Shown here: positions 4,388 to 17,010 of the stretch, in pieces
Position numbering within the stretch: the stretch's first letter is position 1
Layout of the letters: each line of letters opens with the position of its first letter
NCBI GenBank assembly: GCA_015066845.1
Contig: SVNO01000019.1
Span: 1 to 34,907 of the forward strand
DNA: 34,907 nucleotides
Direction: 5' to 3'
From: Ruminococcus sp.
Lineage (GTDB): Bacteria; Bacillota; Clostridia; Oscillospirales; Ruminococcaceae
Program-made: the position numbers and the translations under genes
Notes under the pieces: model-generated
What the model saw: only the letters and a program-made list of their open reading frames with translations
Database searches by the model: none
What the model was told of the DNA's origin: nothing

Positions 4388-6994
4388 TTATCCACGCGAA
4401 ATATTTGTGCGGATTCCGTGTGTCAGGGAACTGATTACCGGCACGGCAAATGCAAAACCAAGAGCCTGCCAGAGAATATTGCCGTACAATCCGGCTGTAC
4501 CAAAAATCACCTGCGCCTGCGGCAGCCAGATGGTCAGGGCGGTAAGGGCTGCGGAAAGAATGACTGCACCAATCAGCTTCCAGTTGGACAAATACCGTAC
4601 CGTCAGCAGCGTTCCGTGCTCCGATTTGCACTCAAATACATGGATCAGCTGCGACACGATCAACGTCAGCAATGCCGCTGTACGCGCCTGCGGAAGTTCT
4701 GCGCCAAACCGCAGTGCCGTGCTGAAAGAACCAAGCGTACACAAACCAATGAAAATACCGCGCATCACAATGCGGCTGAGCAGCCCGTCTGCAAAAAAAC
4801 TCTCGTCCTGCCTGCGCGGCGGATGCTTCATCGTGTCTGGCTCCGGCGGCTCAAGTCCAAGTGCGATCGCCGGCAAGCCGTCCGTTGCAAGATTGACCAG
4901 AAGCAGCTGCACCGGCAGAAGTACGACCGGCATTCCCATGAGAATGCCAAGGAACATCGTGATAACCTCGCCGATGTTGCATGAGAGCAGATAGCGCACA
5001 AACTTGCGGATATTCGCGTAAATGCACCGCCCCTGTTCCACTGCCTTCACAAGCGTGGCAAGGTTATCGTCCATCAGAATCACATCCGCCGCCTGCTTGG
5101 CAACATCCGTACCGCTTGCGCCCATTGCTACGCCAACATCCGCCTCCTTGATGGCAGGTGCATCGTTGACACCATCGCCAGTCATGGTCACAATGCATCC
5201 GCTGCGCTTGAATGCACGGACAAGACGGAGCTTGTGGGCAGGCGTTACACGCGCAAATACGCTGATTTTCGGGAGTCGGCGGTCAAGCTCATCATCCGTC
5301 ATCAGGTCGAGCGCATCCCCCGTGACAACCTCGCCGCCGCGCAGAAGTCCTGCCTGTCGGGCAATTGCCGCCGCGGTTTTCTTGTGGTCGCCGGTAATCA
5401 TCACCGTGCGCACGGACGCAGCTGCACAGGTGCGGATGGCTTCCTTTGCCTCGGCTCTCGGCGGGTCGAGCATTCCGGTCAGTCCGAGAAAGACCATGCC
5501 GGATTCACAGTCGGAAAGTGTCGAAACATCGGATTTTTCTGCAAATGCCAGCACACGCAGCGCACGGTCGGAGAGCTGTTCGACATGGACAAGCACCTCG
5601 GCACGTCTGGCGGCAGTCAGGGGAACAACGCCGTTTTTCGTGCGCAGAAAACTGCATTTTTCCAGAATGACATCCGCCGCGCCCTTGGCATAGCCGGAAC
5701 GGGAATTGCCATGTTTTGCCAGAACAAGCATGTATCGGGTGTCGCTGTCAAAGGGTTCTTCCGCACAGCGGACATGGGAGGAGAGGGATTTTGCCGAAAT
5801 ACCGCCTTTTGCAGCGGCAACGAGGAGGGCGGTTTCCGTGGGGTCGCCGATGGCATTCCAACCGTCCGCGGCATCGGGGGAGAGCTGTGCATTATTACAG
5901 AGCACGGCGCACTGGAGCAGGTGGGAAAGCACCGGAAACTGCTGCAAATTCACGCGCGTACCGGATTCGAGAATTGCCCCCTCACGGCGCAGAGCCGAGC
6001 CGCTGAGGGTGAATGTATTGTCGGCGGTGTGAATGTCGGTGACAGTCATGCGGTTTTCGGTGATCGTTCCGGTTTTGTCGGAGCAGATGACCGCGGTACA
6101 GCCGAGAGTTTCCACACTGTGCAGGCGATTGACGAGGGCGCGGTGCTTCATCATACGGCTGACGGCGAGGGCAAGGGCGATGGTGACAGTTGCCGGCAAG
6201 CCTTCGGGGATGGCGGCAATGGCGATGGAAATACCGGTCATGAGCATATCGAACACAGGCTCACCGCGCAGAACGCCGGCAGCAAATACGGCAATGCAAA
6301 CGCCGATGCAGATGATGGCAAGGGTTTTGCCAAGTTCGCCGAGTCGTTTCTGCAAGGGTGTTTCGGAGCGTTCGATGGAGGTCAGCATACCGGAAATCTG
6401 TCCCATCTGCGTATTTTTTCCGGTTGCAACGACAGTTGCAATACCACTGCCGCGCGTGATGGCAGTACCGGCATAGAGCAGGTAGGGACGATGGAGTCCT
6501 GTGCAGTCCTGCGTCATTGTACCGCATTGTTTTGCGACAGCCTGTGCTTCACCAGTGAGGACGGATTCATTGGCATAGACGCGGTTTCCCTCGGTGAGCA
6601 GGCAATCTGCCGGTACACAGTCACCGGCTTCGATGGAGATGCAATCGCCCTGTACAAGCAAGCTTGCCGGAAGCTCCTGCAATATGCCATCGCGATAGAC
6701 GCGCGCGGTTGGTGCGGTCATATTGCGCAGTGCTTCGAGGGTTTTTTCGGTACGGTATTCCTGCACAAAGCCAAGGATGGCATTGAGCAGAACGATAACG
6801 ATGATGGTGATCGCATCGGTCCATTCACCGAGCAGGGCAGAAATTCCGGTAGCGGCGAGCAGGATGAGCACCATGGCGTCATGGAACTGCCCGAAAAAAA
6901 TCCGCACAGGATGTGGCGGTTTCACAGTTGCGAGGACATTTTCCCCATTTTCTTTCAGACGCGCCTGCGCCTGTTCCTGCGTAAGTCCTTTCAT
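4388..6994 (-). CDS. Cation-transporting P-type ATPase, Ca2+ type (P2A)
   Basis: This membrane pump exports cations, most likely Ca2+, driven by ATP. The 868-aa product has the N-terminal cation ATPase region, the phosphorylation motif CSDKTGT with Asp306, the nucleotide-domain KGAAD near 437-441, TGDGVNDAP near 605-613, the M4 Ca2+-site motif IPEGLP (262-267) and the M6 motif NLATDGLP (701-708). Asn701, Thr704 and Asp705 correspond to SERCA Ca2+ ligands. The actuator loop reads LTGEA at 146-150, whereas the family consensus is TGES; the catalytic Glu is kept but the Ser is Ala. GGAGG lies 10 nt before the ATG at 6994. It is transcribed alone, between the yabR terminator and its own terminator. 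PMCA-like and SERCA-like subtypes cannot be separated here. Confidence 0.92.
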   Translation of the reverse strand: MKGLTQEQAQARLKENGENVLATVKPPHPVRIFFGQFHDAMVLILLAATGISALLGEWTDAITIIVIVLLNAILGFVQEYRTEKTLEALRNMTAPTARVYRDGILQELPASLLVQGDCISIEAGDCVPADCLLTEGNRVYANESVLTGEAQAVAKQCGTMTQDCTGLHRPYLLYAGTAITRGSGIATVVATGKNTQMGQISGMLTSIERSETPLQKRLGELGKTLAIICIGVCIAVFAAGVLRGEPVFDMLMTGISIAIAAIPEGLPATVTIALALAVSRMMKHRALVNRLHSVETLGCTAVICSDKTGTITENRMTVTDIHTADNTFTLSGSALRREGAILESGTRVNLQQFPVLSHLLQCAVLCNNAQLSPDAADGWNAIGDPTETALLVAAAKGGISAKSLSSHVRCAEEPFDSDTRYMLVLAKHGNSRSGYAKGAADVILEKCSFLRTKNGVVPLTAARRAEVLVHVEQLSDRALRVLAFAEKSDVSTLSDCESGMVFLGLTGMLDPPRAEAKEAIRTCAAASVRTVMITGDHKKTAAAIARQAGLLRGGEVVTGDALDLMTDDELDRRLPKISVFARVTPAHKLRLVRAFKRSGCIVTMTGDGVNDAPAIKEADVGVAMGASGTDVAKQAADVILMDDNLATLVKAVEQGRCIYANIRKFVRYLLSCNIGEVITMFLGILMGMPVVLLPVQLLLVNLATDGLPAIALGLEPPEPDTMKHPPRRQDESFFADGLLSRIVMRGIFIGLCTLGSFSTALRFGAELPQARTAALLTLIVSQLIHVFECKSEHGTLLTVRYLSNWKLIGAVILSAALTALTIWLPQAQVIFGTAGLYGNILWQALGFAFAVPVISSLTHGIRTNISRG

Positions 6995-7102
6995 AGGGCA
7001 TCAACCTCCGAATCTGATGTACTATGGAACTATATGCAGGGTTTTTAATAAATATACTGTTCATTTTCAGAATTCTTCCAATACAGCCCCTCCCCCAAAA
7101 GC

Positions 7103-7133
7103 AAAAAAATCAGGACAGTCCCCCTGCCCTGAT
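7103..7133 (-). terminator. Terminator of the yabP-yabQ-divIC-yabR unit
   Basis: On the minus strand ATCAGGGCAG pairs with CTGTCCTGAT (7109-7118 with 7124-7133; one G-U pair), followed by a run of seven T. It begins 7 nt after the yabR stop codon. Confidence 0.85.
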
Positions 7134-7139
7134 ATTCTC

Positions 7140-7607
7140 TTACTTGGAACGTCTGCGACTTCCATTCTTGCGGTCTGTGTTCCGCTTAATGTCACACATG
7201 CGCTCCTCACTGTTCTGCTTGAATTTGCTCATCATGTCCTCAAATGTCATCTCGGACTGCGGCTTCTGCGGCTTCGGCTCCCATACGATCCCACGCTCAC
7301 GCTCCGGTCTGCGCGGACGCTGTGCGGGCTTGTGCTGGTTTCTCTGCTGCGGCTTCTCCTCCGGCATCGCCTTCTTGATGGACATACTTACCTTGCCTTG
7401 CTCATTTACCTGCATTACCTTGACTTTGACTTCCGCACCTTCCGTCAGAAATTCACGGATGTCATTGACATAGGTGTTGGCAACCTCCGAAATATGTACC
7501 ATGCCCGTCACAGGCTTGCCGCCCTCTACGGGTACTTCTACAAAAGCACCATAATTCGTGATTCCTGTTACCTTGCCATCATAAATTTTACCGATCTCCA
7601 GCTGCAT
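7140..7607 (-). CDS. yabR: S1 RNA-binding domain protein (YabR/GSP13-like)
   Basis: The 155-aa product has one S1 domain (residues 1-77: GKIYDGKVTGITNYGAFVEV, then GMVHISEVA, then KVKVMQVN and KVSMSIKKA), followed by a basic, Pro/Gln-rich tail. It probably binds RNA or ribosomes in the cytoplasm; B. subtilis YabR and GSP13 are the nearest family names. In Bacillus yabR follows divIC, and the same order is seen here, with a gap of 39 nt. That context is the reason for the symbol. The tail is longer than in Bacillus. The exact function is not known. Confidence 0.85.
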   Translation of the reverse strand: MQLEIGKIYDGKVTGITNYGAFVEVPVEGGKPVTGMVHISEVANTYVNDIREFLTEGAEVKVKVMQVNEQGKVSMSIKKAMPEEKPQQRNQHKPAQRPRRPERERGIVWEPKPQKPQSEMTFEDMMSKFKQNSEERMCDIKRNTDRKNGSRRRSK

Positions 7608-7646
7608 ACAGTGAATGCCCCCTGCTTCTTAATTTTCAACCGTGCA

Positions 7647-7955
7647 TCAGTCACGGGATGTGTCATAATACCTGCGTTCGTCCGGATATGCATACGAAGT
7701 ACTGCTGTTTTCTACCGCAAGACGCTCCATATACCGTCCAATATCATCGGAATCAATGATATCCTGCAACTCCTCGTTCTCCATCTTCATAATTTCAATG
7801 TCTTCCTCAATCTGTGCAAGCTCATGCTCACTCTCAGCAATGTTGCTCTGCACGGAAATGATGGAATATACACAGAAAACGACAAATAATATGCCTGCAA
7901 TCCGCAGAAGTATGCGGAATCCTACGCTGCTCTCCTGTTTCTTTAACTTTGCCAT
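7647..7955 (-). CDS. divIC: Septum formation initiator DivIC/FtsB family
   Basis: This 102-aa bitopic membrane protein has a short basic N-terminus, one transmembrane segment (about residues 13-32) and an extracellular coiled coil (about 35-65) rich in Glu/Leu/Ile heptads. That is the architecture of DivIC/FtsB, which joins FtsL and DivIB at the division septum and recruits later divisome proteins. The sequence after the coiled coil contains IGRYMERLA, matching the family's ...EE.AR..LG region only loosely. GGAG about 7 nt upstream supports the ATG at 7955. A housekeeping promoter inside the end of yabQ allows vegetative expression apart from the sporulation genes. Confidence 0.85.
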   Translation of the reverse strand: MAKLKKQESSVGFRILLRIAGILFVVFCVYSIISVQSNIAESEHELAQIEEDIEIMKMENEELQDIIDSDDIGRYMERLAVENSSTSYAYPDERRYYDTSRD

Positions 7956-8069
7956 GCTGCTCCCACCTTTTCAGAACAATGTCCTGCATTGTCCATCTTT
8001 TTATCTGCTGCAATTCCTGCGCAATAGGTTCCTCGTCCATGCGCAGTATTGCCCTAAGTTCTCATTATT

Positions 8070-8099
8070 ATTATACACTATTTAAGGGGGGGAGTGCAA
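8070..8099 (-). promoter_or_regulatory. Vegetative promoter for divIC-yabR at the 3' end of yabQ
   Basis: On the minus strand TTGCAC (8094-8099) is followed after 18 nt by TATAAT (8070-8075). The yabQ stop codon (8082-8084) lies in the spacer. This separates expression of the division gene from that of yabP-yabQ and fits the need for DivIC in growing cells. Confidence 0.6.
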
Positions 8100-8552
8100 G
8101 GGATTTTGCGCATTTTTTTGCTCTCTTTTTGTTTTTTTGGAAGTTCCTACAAATATACAGAGCACTTTTCGACAAAAACTTCTAAAGCCCCATCCCAAAA
8201 TCCGCAAAGGAGCGCGTACAACTGCACAAAATGCCGTACCAATACACAGCACAAGCCTGCCGAGGGTGCATTCATAGAGCACAAAGCCAGTGAGCATCCC
8301 AATGACGTAATACAGCCGGAAATCCCCCTTGGCAAAGGCGGTGGTATAGCCTGTGAGGAGAATGCCCCAGAGTACGGGCGTGAGCATATCCTCCGCTGCA
8401 ACTGCTGCCGGATGGTGGGGGATGAGCCGCCGCAGCAGACGGAATACATCAAACAGCAGACCACAGGGAATCCCCAGCAGGCAGGAACCACCGAACAGTG
8501 CAAGCTGCTGTTCAGGGCTGAGAAAGGTTTCCGGTATGACCTGCGCCATCAT
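8082..8552 (-). CDS. yabQ: Spore cortex biosynthesis protein YabQ
   Basis: YabQ is a multi-pass protein of the forespore outer membrane needed for spore cortex formation. The product of about 156 aa has several hydrophobic segments (near residues 17-32, 50-70 and 78-112) and the family motif CGLLFDVFRLLRR near 26-38, followed by a basic cytoplasmic tail. The start is placed at the ATG at 8552, which overlaps the yabP stop as ATGA; the next codon is also ATG (8549). The open frame continues upstream to 8636, but that part overlaps yabP and lacks a ribosome-binding site. The order yabP-yabQ-divIC-yabR is the conserved Bacillus/Clostridia order. Confidence 0.87.
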   Translation of the reverse strand: MMAQVIPETFLSPEQQLALFGGSCLLGIPCGLLFDVFRLLRRLIPHHPAAVAAEDMLTPVLWGILLTGYTTAFAKGDFRLYYVIGMLTGFVLYECTLGRLVLCIGTAFCAVVRAPLRILGWGFRSFCRKVLCIFVGTSKKTKREQKNAQNPLHSPP

Positions 8553-8818
8553 CGCAGTAATCTCCCAAAGAGATTGAGGGGACTGCGGCGGTCGCGGTCG
8601 CCGTACTGCACTGACCAGATGTCGCCTGTGATGCACATCGCGCCTGTTTCGATGCTCATGGACGTGATGTGCAGGTCTTTGCCGCTGATGGTCAGTTCTC
8701 CCTGTGCGGTAAAGAGAATCATTTCGCGCTCGTCAAAGCTGTCCACATCGGTGACACCGGAAAGTGACAGATTCCGGCGGTTTTCGAGTATTAAGCCATG
8801 GGTTTTCTGTTCCTGCAT
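8549..8818 (-). CDS. yabP: Sporulation protein YabP
   Basis: YabP is a small protein needed for spore formation, related to YqfC. The 89-aa product shows the family pattern: ILENRRNLSLSGVTDVDSFD near the N-terminus, then GELTISGKDLHI and IETG...ITGDIWSVQY. GGAGG lies 8 nt before the ATG at 8818. It is the first gene of the four-gene minus-strand unit; the S4-domain gene (yabO/rqcP) that often precedes it is missing here. No clear sigma-A promoter was found upstream; a sigma-E promoter is expected from Bacillus but could not be placed with confidence. Confidence 0.9.
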   Translation of the reverse strand: MQEQKTHGLILENRRNLSLSGVTDVDSFDEREMILFTAQGELTISGKDLHITSMSIETGAMCITGDIWSVQYGDRDRRSPLNLFGRLLR

Positions 8819-13391: not shown

Positions 13392-13420
13392 CCACGATTT
13401 ATGTCGTTCGTGCCAATTGC

Positions 13421-13449
13421 TTGACATTTGAATTTAAATATGATAGAGT
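13421..13449 (+). promoter_or_regulatory. Promoter of agrD
   Basis: A consensus TTGACA (13421-13426) and a weaker TAGAGT (13444-13449) are 17 nt apart. The weak -10 box would leave room for activation. Confidence 0.65.
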
Positions 13450-13541
13450 AGAAGTAGGGACTGCGGAAAATTCTGGAAAGAAAGCGCAGACCTGTGCAGA
13501 AAGGGGCATTGAACATGCCTGCAAACGAGGAGGTGAACTAC

Positions 13542-13667
13542 ATGAACAAGATTGCAAAGGCACTGGCAAACCTGACACGCAAAATCGCAGTGTCTGCTAA
13601 TGGTGCAGCATCCACAATGGGCACATATCAGCCCAAGGAGCCGAAAATGCTCAAGAATGAAAAGTAA
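13542..13667 (+). CDS. agrD: AgrD-like cyclic lactone autoinducer pro-peptide
   Basis: This 41-aa precursor has the three parts of AgrD: an amphipathic basic helix (residues 1-17), a short core, and a charged tail YQPKEPK from Tyr29 that matches the conserved tail of clostridial AgrD (for example HQPEEPK in C. perfringens, from memory). Aligned on that tail, the five-residue ring is Ser24-Thr-Met-Gly-Thr28. The usual Cys is Ser, so a lactone is predicted instead of a thiolactone, as in the Staphylococcus intermedius signal. There is no Cys in the whole peptide. AGGAGG lies 6-7 nt before the ATG at 13542; an in-frame ATG at 13515 would add nine residues. AgrB at 16204 is the expected processing enzyme. 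It is encoded apart, with its own promoter and terminator. Confidence 0.82.
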   Translation: MNKIAKALANLTRKIAVSANGAASTMGTYQPKEPKMLKNEK

Positions 13668-13800
13668 GGATTGTTTGGGGAGAATTTGCGGGTAGGACGT
13701 ACAATTTGCACAATCATCCACCAAACACGGACACGACCGACTCATTGACGAATATCCGTCAAAAACTTTCAAAACGATATTTGAATAATACTGATTACTG

Positions 13801-13847
13801 AGCCAGCACCCTCTTGAAACGGAATAAGAGGGGGCTGGCTGCTTTTT
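13801..13847 (+). terminator. Terminator of agrD
   Basis: AGCCAGC plus CCCTCTT (13801-13815) pair with AAGAGGG plus GCTGGCT (13826-13840) with one A/G mismatch, followed by TTTTT (13843-13847). It isolates agrD from the following genes. Confidence 0.85.
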
Positions 13848-13917
13848 AGGGCATGGAAAGCCGGAATTCCGGAGAAAAGGGGCAGCGTGGAATCCGCGCA
13901 GAATTGCGGTTCTCCCC

Positions 13918-13946
13918 TTGATTTCCCCCGAAAAACATGCTATAAT
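13918..13946 (+). promoter_or_regulatory. Promoter of the response regulator-kinase-agrB operon
   Basis: TTGATT (13918-13923) and TATAAT (13941-13946) are 17 nt apart, 30 nt before the 53-aa ORF. Confidence 0.75.
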
Positions 13947-13976
13947 ATACATAAGTACGCAGAAAGGAGCATACAA

Positions 13977-14138
13977 ATGGGAATCTATCTCAATCCCGAC
14001 AACGCGGCATTCACAAAAGCAGTATGTGCAATGCCTGAAGGATCATACGGGGGTGGGGGTAAGCTGCGGCAGGAACGCGGAAAAAACAGCATACAAGCGC
14101 GATGGAATGCGTGGAAAAATGATGGGTGCAGCATATGA
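13977..14138 (+). CDS. 53-aa ORF, possible remnant of a PF09820 AAA-ATPase-like gene
   Basis: The ORF starts MGIYLNPDNAAFTKAV, which resembles the N-terminus of the AAA-ATPase-like family PF09820, common in gut Clostridia; that family continues with a Y.DKT/S motif after about 20 residues, which is missing here. The rest, Gly- and Arg-rich, matches nothing I know. AAAGGAG lies 8 nt upstream and a good promoter precedes it. Its TGA overlaps the next start as ATGA, so translating it may carry ribosomes to the regulator gene, which lacks a strong site of its own. It could be a decayed gene kept as a leader cistron, or a real small protein. Confidence 0.5.
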   Translation: MGIYLNPDNAAFTKAVCAMPEGSYGGGGKLRQERGKNSIQARWNAWKNDGCSI

Positions 14139-14863
14139 TCAGAATTGCAATTGTAGACGATGAGCCGAATGAACGTGGCAATATTTCAAAATATGTTGAA
14201 AATGGGATAGCAATGCTGCGCCTGCGGTGCGATGTGCAGGTCTTTACCTGCGCGAAGGACTTTTTGCAGGCGAACCAAACCAGTCCCTTTCACGTCGTTT
14301 TTCTCGATATTTTCATGCCGGAAATGGACGGCTTCGCGCTCTCCAAGCTCCTGCGCGAAAAACGGCAGGAAATCCTGATTGTCTATATCACCACCAACGA
14401 GCATCTTGTGTTCGATTCCTTTGATTACCAGCCGTTCCAATTCCTGCGCAAACGCGAGCCGGACGCGCTGCAAGCGGACATCATCCAGACATTGCAGAAA
14501 ATCCAAAGATACCTTACGCAGTCTAAGGTGCTTACCCTCATGCTCCCCTACGACAAGCATATGACGATCCCCTTACAGGATGTGGAATCCATTGCCAGTG
14601 AGCTGCATTACCTGCTCTATACGCTCAAGGATGGTACGGAGCTGAAATGCCGCGGAAATCTGGCAGAAATTGAATCGGAGATGGAAAACTACGATTTCAT
14701 CCGTGTGCACCGCAGCTATCTTGTGAATCTCCAGAATGTCACGCAGTTTATTACACAGAAACGTATCGTAAAACTGCGCAGCGGCAGAATACTGAGTGTC
14801 GGGCGAAAGTATGAGCACGACGCGCTGAAACAATATAAATCCTACCTGAGGACGTTAGTATGA
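14135..14863 (+). CDS. agrA: LytTR-family response regulator (AgrA-like)
   Basis: The 242-aa product has a receiver domain (residues 1-120) with Asp8/Asp9, phospho-acceptor Asp58 in FLDIFMPEMDG, Thr86 and Lys106, and a LytTR DNA-binding domain (about 135-240, with VESIASELHYL, FIRVHRSYLVNL and LRSGRILSVGRKY). AgrA of staphylococci has the same plan and activates the agr promoters once its kinase sees the peptide. The ATG at 14135 overlaps the stop of the 53-aa ORF; the kinase start overlaps its own stop as ATGA. The symbol is given from family and context; its targets, possibly the agrD promoter, are inferred. Confidence 0.87.
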   Translation: MIRIAIVDDEPNERGNISKYVENGIAMLRLRCDVQVFTCAKDFLQANQTSPFHVVFLDIFMPEMDGFALSKLLREKRQEILIVYITTNEHLVFDSFDYQPFQFLRKREPDALQADIIQTLQKIQRYLTQSKVLTLMLPYDKHMTIPLQDVESIASELHYLLYTLKDGTELKCRGNLAEIESEMENYDFIRVHRSYLVNLQNVTQFITQKRIVKLRSGRILSVGRKYEHDALKQYKSYLRTLV

Positions 14864-16188
14864 TGAACATTGCATGGAACTTGTTTGAGCTTGCCGTGAA
14901 CGTCTGGGAATCCGGATTGATTATGGCTTTTGTCTTTCACTTTCTTGATGCGCCGCCACGAGAAGCGGAAAATCGTTGGAAATTCGTGCTTGGATGGGCA
15001 GGCTACTTTACCATTGTGACAGTGATGAACCATATCACCGTGTACGAGGGACTTGCCGGTTTTGTCTATGTTGCGTATCTTTTCCTGTTTTCGCTGATAC
15101 TCGAAGGCAGCCTGCTCAAAAAATTGATGGCATCCGCCATGACGCTTGCCTGTGTGATCCTGATTTCCTCCACCGTCACGAATACCGTGTCCGTGCTTGC
15201 GGATGTGCCGTTGGAATTTATCTATACCACGGGGAATTTCTACCGGCTTCTGTCGATCCTTGCCGTACAGCTGATGCTTGTGTACTGCTTCCAGATGCTT
15301 GTAAAAATTTTCCAGAGAAACGGCGTGAACTTCCAGAAAACGGAATGGCTTGTGATTATTTCCGTGCTCGTTCTCTCGCTTCTGGTCATGGTATTCCTGC
15401 ACATTCTGGCAATGGAAACCCACCTTGCGGATGCACAGGCGCGTTTGCTGGTACTGGCAAATCTCTGCATCATTGCCATGAACCTGCTGCTGTTCTACCT
15501 TGTCAACCGCCTGAGCCTGAACAACCACAGAATCCGCACAATGCAGGAACAGCAGCAGCTTTTGCTGCGTGAGAATCACTACGCGGAAAGCATTCAGCAG
15601 CAGGCGGACACGCTCCAGAGAATGCGCCATGACTGGAAGCAGCATCTGAGCGTGGTGCAGACAATGCTGAAGGGCGGCGAAACCGAACGTGCGCTCGCCT
15701 ATCTGCAAACCTATCAGGAGCACGAAATTACAGCCAATCTCACTGGCTTGCAGGTGAATTCCAATAACCGCTACCTTGACGCGCTGCTCCATGTGAAATT
15801 CACGATGGCAAAGGAATGCAATATTCAGGTGGAATGCAATTGTCAGGCAGAATTTGAATGCTACTCCGATGTCAAGCTGTGCAACCTCATCGGCAACCTG
15901 ATGGACAATGCCATTGAAGCCTGCCAGCGCATCGAGGAGGGCAGGCGGTATATCCGGCTGACCATCCGCGGCAACAGTGAACGGATGATTATTGAAACGG
16001 CGAACACCGTCAATGCACCTGTGACGGAAACCAATCCGCACATGGAAACCAACAAATACAACGGCACTACGCATGGCTACGGAATGCAGACCATCCGTTC
16101 CATCGCCAGACAGTACAACGGTGATCTGGATTATTACGACCAGGATGGTATCTTCCATATGCAGGTGGTGCTCTACGGTACATCATAA
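14860..16188 (+). CDS. agrC: GHKL-type sensor histidine kinase (AgrC-like)
   Basis: The 442-aa product has about six hydrophobic segments in residues 1-215, a linker helix, the H-box RHDWKQHLSVV with His257, the N-box NLIGNLMDNAIEA (342-354) and the G-box GYGMQTI (406-412). The degenerate ATPase lacking a classical D/F box is typical of the HATPase_c_5/GHKL kinases that pair with LytTR regulators. The polytopic sensor fits recognition of a cyclic peptide at the cell surface. Its start, ATG 14860, overlaps the regulator's stop; ATG 14863 follows immediately. agrB begins 15 nt after its stop. Confidence 0.88.
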   Translation: MMNIAWNLFELAVNVWESGLIMAFVFHFLDAPPREAENRWKFVLGWAGYFTIVTVMNHITVYEGLAGFVYVAYLFLFSLILEGSLLKKLMASAMTLACVILISSTVTNTVSVLADVPLEFIYTTGNFYRLLSILAVQLMLVYCFQMLVKIFQRNGVNFQKTEWLVIISVLVLSLLVMVFLHILAMETHLADAQARLLVLANLCIIAMNLLLFYLVNRLSLNNHRIRTMQEQQQLLLRENHYAESIQQQADTLQRMRHDWKQHLSVVQTMLKGGETERALAYLQTYQEHEITANLTGLQVNSNNRYLDALLHVKFTMAKECNIQVECNCQAEFECYSDVKLCNLIGNLMDNAIEACQRIEEGRRYIRLTIRGNSERMIIETANTVNAPVTETNPHMETNKYNGTTHGYGMQTIRSIARQYNGDLDYYDQDGIFHMQVVLYGTS

Positions 16189-16203
16189 CGGGAGGGCAGT
16201 GCG

Positions 16204-16791
16204 ATGCTTGAAACAATTGCAAAGAAAATCGTGGAATTCTATGTGCGCAGCGGTGCAGTTCCCGATGATGAGGACCATCGGGAGCTTTACCAGTACGGCG
16301 TGGAAATTTTCCTGTCCAGTGCAGGCAATCTCCTGATCATCGCGCTGCTCGGACTCCTGTTTGGTTCGCTCACGGCAAGTGTGCTGTTCCTGCTCGTGTT
16401 CCTGCTCATCCGCAGGCACAGCGGCGGCTATCATGCCGACACCTATTTGCGGTGCAATGTGGTGTTCGGCTGTGTATTTCTTGCCGTGCTCCTGCTGGCA
16501 AAGCTCTGTGCGCATATCCCGTTCCTGTGCATCCCTCTTGCCGTGCTGACTGCATCGGGAATGATCGTGGTGTGGAAGTACGCGCCCGTACCCAATCCCC
16601 ACAAAACGCTCAACGACCGGCAAAAACGCAATGCCCATCGTTTTGCCATCCTCGGCTACACGCTGACGACCCTTGCCGGCATCGCGCTTGCATGGTATGA
16701 CGATTTTCTGGGCGCGGTCGTTCTGGGAACGCTGACTGCGATCGTGGTGCTGATGGTTGTCGGGCATTGTTCAGCGGTACGCAATGCATGA
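16204..16791 (+). CDS. agrB: Accessory gene regulator protein B (AgrB)
   Basis: AgrB is a membrane cysteine endopeptidase that cuts the tail of AgrD and closes the (thio)lactone ring. The 195-aa product has the catalytic motif RRHSGGYHA with His77 and then Cys84 in YLRCN, the same positions as in the S. aureus enzyme. It also has the PHKTL motif and four to six membrane segments. GGAG lies about 8 nt before the ATG. It is the last gene of the regulator-kinase-agrB operon; the peptide gene is 2.5 kb upstream, so the order differs from the classical agrBDCA. No clear terminator follows. Confidence 0.92.
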   Translation: MLETIAKKIVEFYVRSGAVPDDEDHRELYQYGVEIFLSSAGNLLIIALLGLLFGSLTASVLFLLVFLLIRRHSGGYHADTYLRCNVVFGCVFLAVLLLAKLCAHIPFLCIPLAVLTASGMIVVWKYAPVPNPHKTLNDRQKRNAHRFAILGYTLTTLAGIALAWYDDFLGAVVLGTLTAIVVLMVVGHCSAVRNA

Positions 16792-16850: not shown

Positions 16851-16878
16851 TTGCAAAACACAAAAAATGTGGTATAAT
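16851..16878 (+). promoter_or_regulatory. Promoter upstream of the RING/zinc-ribbon gene
   Basis: TTGCAA (16851-16856) and TATAAT (16873-16878) are 16 nt apart. The leader to the start at 17075 is about 190 nt and contains repeat B. Confidence 0.65.
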
Positions 16879-16892
16879 AGAACTAATACTAT

Positions 16893-17010
16893 GTAAGTTC
16901 TAAATCTTGAAAAAAAGCGGGACTTGGGGGTGCAACCCCCGTATGTCCCTCCCCCGCTTTGCGGCGGAGGGGGCAGCTCAAGTTAAGAAGCATCATCAAG
17001 TTTTAGCTTA
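16893..17010 (+). repeat. Repeat family B, copy 1
   Basis: The left part (AGTTCTAAATCTTGA, A-run, AGCGGGACTTGGG) recurs at 34724-34761 with a few differences. It is followed by hairpins GGGGG/CCCCC (16926-16940) and CCCTCCCCCGC with a G-rich partner (16947-16974). Towards the right, AGCATCATCAAGTTTTAGCTT resembles the inverse of the left end only weakly. It forms most of the leader of the next gene. Ends are approximate. Confidence 0.5.

Follow-up and report, generated by a model that had tools for sequence, protein, structure and literature searches.

How would an agr quorum-sensing system work when its signal gene stands apart from the gene for the maturing protease, and when the signal precursor has no cysteine with which to close a ring? 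This question is raised by a locus of Ruminococcus sp. (assembly GCA_015066845.1), found on a contig of 34,907 nucleotides (SVNO01000019.1, hereafter the window; C81 among the 106 contigs of a 2.2-Mb draft genome). All four genes of an agr set are present there, in the order agrD, agrA, agrC, agrB (Table 1). In Staphylococcus aureus agrBDCA, which yields a Cys thiolactone and is associated with RNAIII, agrD lies inside the operon; the roles of AgrB, AgrD, AgrC and AgrA and the tail layout of AgrD are, from general knowledge, those of the window. We consider it likely that the window holds a serine-type agr locus in which agrD would form its own transcription unit, feedback would act on the precursor and not on AgrB, and the signal would be the lactone STMGT.

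The agr set and its predicted signal

The locus is a real agr quorum-sensing system, serine-type as is ordinary for its clade and uncommon in its gene order. The initial annotation, made from the DNA letters, had recognized an agr locus, and the domain and family matches bear this out. AgrB scores 135.7 bits against PF04647 (cut-off 23), and its His77 and Cys84, correctly placed from the outset, are conserved in 93 of 93 aligned AgrBs, as are Gly74 and Gly75. The best-scoring named records for this AgrB are mostly from Ruminococcus; among PDB sequences it has no match up to E 1. A GHKL kinase and a LytTR regulator are adjacent according to Pfam. The agrB gene starts 15 nt past the agrC stop, and agrA 467 nt past the agrD stop.

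AgrD has 41 residues (MNKIAKALANLTRKIAVSANGAASTMGTYQPKEPKMLKNEK), with no cysteine, a core from Ser24 to Thr28 and the tail YQPKEPK, all as first described. It scores 38.8 bits (E 6.9e-10) against the NCBIfam model TIGR04223 (quorum_AgrD), twice the cut-off of 19. A chance open reading frame (ORF) was therefore rejected, and the earlier remark that such genes are often missed by annotation becomes doubtful, since a curated NCBI model detects this one; Pfam gives no match. The ring cysteine of a thiolactone autoinducing peptide (AIP) is absent. Ser24 occupies the nucleophile position, which precedes the conserved tail [YH]Q.K.P by five residues, and 63 of 64 AgrDs sampled across the order have Cys, Ser or Thr there. 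An AgrB is predicted to convert AgrD into a cyclic peptide, and its register alone predicts that the mature peptide is a Ser-ester lactone. The signal would probably consist of the ring STMGT without tail; the calculated [M+H]+ of this exotail-free lactone is 478.197. The lactone and the head-to-tail cyclic pentapeptide are equal in mass, and a loss of one water cannot separate the two.

The assignment of Ser24 and STMGT to the ring, proposed in the initial annotation, is backed by the cores of homologues and by the Ser25-Phe29 lactone of Clostridium thermocellum. According to the available part of that report, Ser25 of this AgrD (Clo1313_2818) gives a lactone pentapeptide identified in supernatant by targeted liquid chromatography-tandem mass spectrometry against a synthetic standard, a linear version has no effect, and the gene lies outside an apparent agr operon (PMC5322536). 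Its layout (predicted cut A24/S25, ring to F29, Y30, P35) parallels that of the window (A23/S24, ring to T28, Y29, P34): both are clostridial AgrDs with a five-residue Ser ring, Tyr next and Pro five later, encoded apart from agrB. No AgrB, AgrC or AgrA partner of Clo1313_2818 is identified in the same partial text, whereas agrA, agrC and agrB lie 0.5 kb downstream in the window (PMC5322536). The AIP of Staphylococcus intermedius and S. pseudintermedius also has Ser for Cys and a lactone, as predicted here; in the portions available it is described as a nonamer with a tail outside the ring and as an exception among Cys-using staphylococci (PMC3673130, PMC10482373).

Conservation of AgrD in relatives could be checked at a distance only: no close orthologue was found, matches at E <= 0.001 occurring in 5 of 61 genomes including its own, with the others 45-56% identical. 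In the open-licence literature we found no description of Ruminococcus AgrD signals or of an agrD that is separate from agrB and controlled by an operator of its own. Surveys of the rumen, again as seen in partial texts, give 75 matches to the TIGR04223 rule in isolates (PMC13289728) and agrA/agrB genes in 199 genomes (PMC10838665).

Serine rings, AgrB ancestry and gene order

The initial annotation took the missing cysteine as exceptional. To the extent that TIGR04223 detects them, AgrDs were gathered in three ways: from the genus, from loci fetched with the window AgrB (a set biased towards its kin) and from genomes sampled evenly across the order (394, of which 48 matched at E <= 1e-4; 63 loci fetched). 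Among the 38 genomes of the genus, 10 have an AgrB match and 9 an AgrD over the cut-off. Ring position 1 is Ser in six and Cys in four of the 10 distinct genus AgrDs. In the kin set of 32, 29 are Ser, 2 Cys and 1 other (25 of 28 Ser once four Ser repeats of genus loci, L073, L076, L080 and L081, are removed). The 64 distinct order-wide AgrDs divide into 35 Cys, 25 Ser, 3 Thr and 1 other. L193, which has no readable core, is left out of the ring counts. A Cys stands elsewhere in the ring in 8 of these 25 Ser AgrDs, and some of them (NST-SC type) may in fact have a Cys ring that starts one residue later. A Ser ring is not unusual in this bacterial order; it is a major form. With Ser also in all ten AgrDs of the window's own clade, and with a clostridial Ser lactone published, the supposed exception does not stand. 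A recent one-off change from Cys was likewise rejected, on the order-wide counts and the AgrB tree. We also observed ring starts of the form NST-SC, NST-TC or NRT-SC (L157, L166, L190, L191), with Cys one residue later than usual; such rings may have four residues or take in Tyr.

The AgrB tree comprises 93 proteins. The four repeats were dropped from it, and from the Gly4, gene-order, upstream-repeat and best-match analyses. An agrD was assigned within 1.5 kb of agrB (3 kb allowed for the window), which gave 84 AgrBs with an AgrD: 47 Ser, 30 Cys, 6 SC type and 1 other. Of the remaining nine, five have no agrD in the fetched stretch and four (L177, L095, L099, L183) have one beyond 1.5 kb. As this is a quick tree in which 41 of 90 inner branches are weak, its use is limited to clustering and to well-supported (starred) sets. 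The Ser label needs 8 changes on it, against a shuffled mean of 27.7, and a value as low appeared in none of 500 shuffles: the Ser ring goes with AgrB ancestry. The window AgrB falls inside a set of 10, supported at 99% by the SH-like approximate likelihood ratio test (SH-aLRT); all are Ser-type and both loci of Ruminococcus bicirculans 80/3 are included. Gly occupies ring position 4 in 10/10 AgrDs of this set, in 11/37 other Ser AgrDs and in 0/30 Cys AgrDs, a pattern that supports STMGT as the ring despite the location of agrD elsewhere. Furthermore, the top match by score of each of the window AgrA, AgrC, AgrB and AgrD belongs to this clade (32%, 30%, 37% and 56% identity, respectively). That S. 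aureus AgrB1 and AgrB2 are unable to process a Ser AgrD, as stated in the part of the report available, is in line with Ser following AgrB type (PMC10482373).

The unusual gene order noted from the outset is confirmed. Among 43 Ser-type four-gene loci, 26 are A-C-B-D, 6 B-D-A-C, 9 in other orders, and only the window and L177 are D-A-C-B. Usually, although not as a strict criterion of an agr locus, agrD stands beside agrB; here it neither adjoins nor overlaps it, and lies 2.5 kb upstream, past agrA and agrC. L188, which shares its genus group with L177, shows D-A before its contig ends, and a Cys-type locus (L146) shows D-A-C, no agrB being found within the fetched stretch. L177 comes from a different family (f2), and its AgrB forms a long branch that does not fall in the window's clade; a D-first order therefore probably had more than one origin.

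The survey turned up further irregular loci. L161 (G376:C42), a B-D-D-A-C locus, has a tandem of two agrD genes whose rings read SEWDV and SEWNA. In a genome with four AgrB matches, L140/L141 (G173:C4) form a couple of nearly identical agrD-agrB pairs, separated by about 6 kb. In L165 (G196:C12, 3577-4123), an agrD with ring SYYGT adjoins a frame in which only the C-terminal half of AgrB follows an ATPase-like start; this half is the sole PF04647 match of its genome. In L023 (G019:C84, 2995-3921), the AgrB frame runs in frame into a stretch that is dockerin-like by eye, as if fused to the downstream gene.

An operator-like repeat and the transcription of agrD

The half-site, the terminator and the regulatory meaning of the split layout described below go beyond the initial annotation, whose stretch begins exactly where the promoter-like -35 hexamer upstream of agrD begins, at 13421. 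The ribosome-binding site, this promoter-like site and a strong hairpin with a T run make agrD most likely a one-gene transcript, and we regard it as probably monocistronic on these sequence features. As classes, promoter-like and terminator-like sites are at chance level here (6 promoter-like sites found by consensus scan versus 4.6 expected in shuffles); the hairpin fold is not. The scan, limited to loops of 3-8 nt, did not list this hairpin.

LytTR sites normally come in pairs, with a usual spacing of 21 nt. Of 150 regions that lie upstream of agr genes, 37 contain tandem 11-mers at this spacing, compared with 2-16 for any other spacing between 12 and 35 (certain divergent promoters enter the count twice, once from each side, and L141 was dropped in addition). 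In the window's clade, the repeat is a TTYGTGCCW pair at 20 nt, located before agrB in 8 of 9 relatives with 14-18 of 18 positions matched. Scores of at least 14 before agrB occur in 8/8 testable clade relatives, each equalled in at most 4 of 300 shuffles, against 6/81 other loci; L168, whose upstream stretch is too short, and L141 were left out of the shuffle test. The best pairs before the relatives' agrA (6/9 testable) and agrD (9/9) reach only 10-13 of 18.

In the window, the good half-site stands before agrD and not before agrA or agrB; before agrB nothing alike was found (10 of 18). It matches TTYGTGCCW at 9 of 9 positions; when the 200-nt region was shuffled 1000 times, 4 of the shuffles reached the same score. 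With a matrix built from the nine relatives' regions before agrB, without the window's letters, it ranks first of 69,798 positions, and no other among the 200 best is followed within 4-7 nt by a perfect TTGACA (in four weaker cases 5 of 6 letters agree). The loci of R. bicirculans 80/3 (L074, L075) offer the closest contrast: A-C-B-D in order, with rings SMYGG and SAYGG, they share with the window the AgrB clade, a Ser ring with Gly4 and a TTYGTGCCW-type repeat, but their repeat precedes agrB with agrBD as one unit behind it, whereas only agrD lies behind that of the window. In L177 and L188, a similar repeat, 21 nt apart, stands upstream of agrD. With the half-site before the -35 box of agrD itself and agrB tight behind agrC, feedback would probably act on the precursor alone, the operator having probably shifted to agrD.

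Several points weigh against this interpretation. Only one half-site is convincing, no good partner being present at 20-21 nt from it, and its gap to the -35 box is 5 nt instead of the 6 nt seen in relatives, which are themselves split between TTGAC (four) and TAGAC (four). The clade member L168 does not fit, with 12 of 18 before agrB. The TTYGTGCCW consensus was drawn from the same relatives after the window motif had been seen, so that the tests are not fully blind. At 32, 30 and 37% identity to the nearest sampled AgrA, AgrC and AgrB, the system is distant, and its AgrA may bind another sequence. The D-A-C-B order is seen in no other fetched locus of the genus, and the draft genome is incomplete (93%, 106 contigs), such that the gap between agrD and agrA could have been misassembled.

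Other searches for the repeat added little. Looking for direct repeats in the upstream regions of the window itself gave nothing useful, and tandem operators elsewhere in the genome were reduced to one match, with two mismatches and inside a coding frame, which was taken as chance. The exact pattern TTCGTGCCA-N5/6-TTGACA has one genome match; this is no test, because the pattern was taken from the window itself.

Table 1. Features of the agr locus, in window positions
Feature	Position	Strand	Basis and remarks
Candidate AgrA (LytTR-type) operator half-site TTCGTGCCA	13407..13415	+	Relatives' matrix; 9/9 to TTYGTGCCW
Putative agrD promoter, TTGACA-17-TAGAGT	13421..13449	+	Consensus scan; starts 5 nt past half-site
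Ribosome-binding site AGGAGG	13528..13533	+	Sequence, upstream of agrD
agrD, 41 aa	13542..13667	+	ATG to stop; leader codons 1-23; predicted ring core STMGT 13611-13625; tail YQPKEPKMLKNEK from 13626
Terminator-like hairpin and T run	13801..13848	+	15-nt arms, 93% complementary; -26 kcal/mol, z -4.25
Promoter-like TTGATT-17-TATAAT, candidate agrACB promoter	13918..13946	+	Consensus scan
agrA, response regulator with LytTR domain	14135..14863	+	ORF list, Pfam; alternative GTG start 14126
agrC, GHKL sensor kinase	14860..16188	+	ORF list, Pfam; 4-base overlap with agrA
agrB, AgrD-processing membrane protease, His77/Cys84	16204..16791	+	Pfam, alignment, tree

The gap between agrD and agrA also holds a 53-aa ORF (13977-14138) without Pfam match, whose first 16 residues (MGIYLNPDNAAFTKAV) match 11/16 a frame of L077, which we take from its look to be AAA-ATPase-like. 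This is possibly a gene remnant, or a captured promoter and start before agrACB. Compared with its own genome, the gap has, beyond itself, one 35-nt match at 83%. Behind agrB, positions 16851-17010 combine a promoter-like site with a stretch that is GC-rich and folded (z -2.5). Rfam gives no match there at E up to 1, and the region may be a terminator or encode a small RNA; between 11000 and 19000, the sole Rfam match above gathering score is a transfer RNA.

The proposed circuit and its alternatives

We propose that AgrB, through Cys84, would cut AgrD after Thr28, and that the hydroxyl of Ser24 would release the acyl-enzyme to form the five-residue lactone STMGT. The leader would then be cut, most likely after Ala23, leaving an exotail-free pentapeptide. 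AgrC would sense this peptide, and AgrA would bind the candidate half-site and raise agrD transcription. If agrB is co-transcribed with agrA and agrC, this positive feedback would raise the precursor and not the processing enzyme.

The final signal could instead be the head-to-tail peptide cyclo(STMGT): in an exotail-free lactone, the free amine of Ser24 may take the acyl group by an O to N shift. Exotail-free pentameric AIPs of Listeria do rearrange to homodetic peptides, and of a lactone analogue kept for 22 h at pH 7.0 and 37 C, 48% had rearranged and 36% had hydrolysed, but the homodetic form was active only at high concentration, according to the part of the study available (PMC11297923). 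The small residues GAA before Ser in the window would suit a tail-less cut. As the C. thermocellum lactone in supernatant matched its synthetic standard, although the available text is silent on any exclusion of the homodetic form (PMC5322536), we find this outcome rather doubtful and keep the lactone as the predicted signal. It is very improbable that agrD is a stranded relic, expressed outside any working circuit. Its detachment from agrB, the fragment resembling another gene's start in the D-A gap and the missing or degraded second half-site would fit such a fate, but the leader, ring register, tail, ribosome site, promoter and terminator all look intact, and the AgrA, AgrC and AgrB frames are open with domains or motifs present.

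A further alternative comes from a second agr set in the same genome, A-C-B in order, on contig C73 (L015, about 5798-8732). No agrD was found there, so that the genome has two AgrBs and a single AgrD over the cut-off, and the window agrD might serve the C73 AgrB, or both. A Ser-type AgrD is encoded at the locus of L066, the tree sister of the C73 AgrB, and TTYGTGCCW is matched once, at 8/9, in the C73 gap that precedes agrB. This match is unpaired, however, no pair scoring 14 or more, and the same agrC-agrB gap carries ATTATCCCA, a half-site present twice in L066; by regulation, the window agrD more likely belongs to the window set. Its ring Gly4 fits the window's AgrB clade, and its best match among 103 AgrDs is the clade member L065, with non-clade ones close behind. 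Service to C73 thus appears improbable. The long agrB frames of C73, L022 and L023 might have concealed an agrD, but this was rejected by eye, as none shows an AgrD tail motif. Of note, the C73 agrB overlaps a 306-aa secreted-protein frame (L001, 561-1481) that is cohesin/dockerin-like by eye.

Returning to the circuit with feedback on the precursor, we may tentatively go further, with no great confidence: the AgrA switch that precedes agrBD in relatives may have moved with agrD alone, such that the precursor would be autoinduced while the protease is held at the level of the sensor operon, giving a built-in ceiling, and one precursor might feed two circuits.

These results correct the picture of Ser-based AgrD signals as a staphylococcal oddity: Ser is a major form in this clostridial order. 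Because Ser clusters with AgrB ancestry, AgrB pairs of both kinds can be compared, and such a comparison could ask what lets a cysteine protease pass an acyl group to a hydroxyl. With the clade-specific repeat, the agr regulons of little-studied bacteria could be sought by sequence. The less usual part of this locus is a signal gene apparently equipped with a feedback switch of its own and separated from its maturing enzyme; this split layout would be a natural test of feedback on a precursor without feedback on the processing enzyme.

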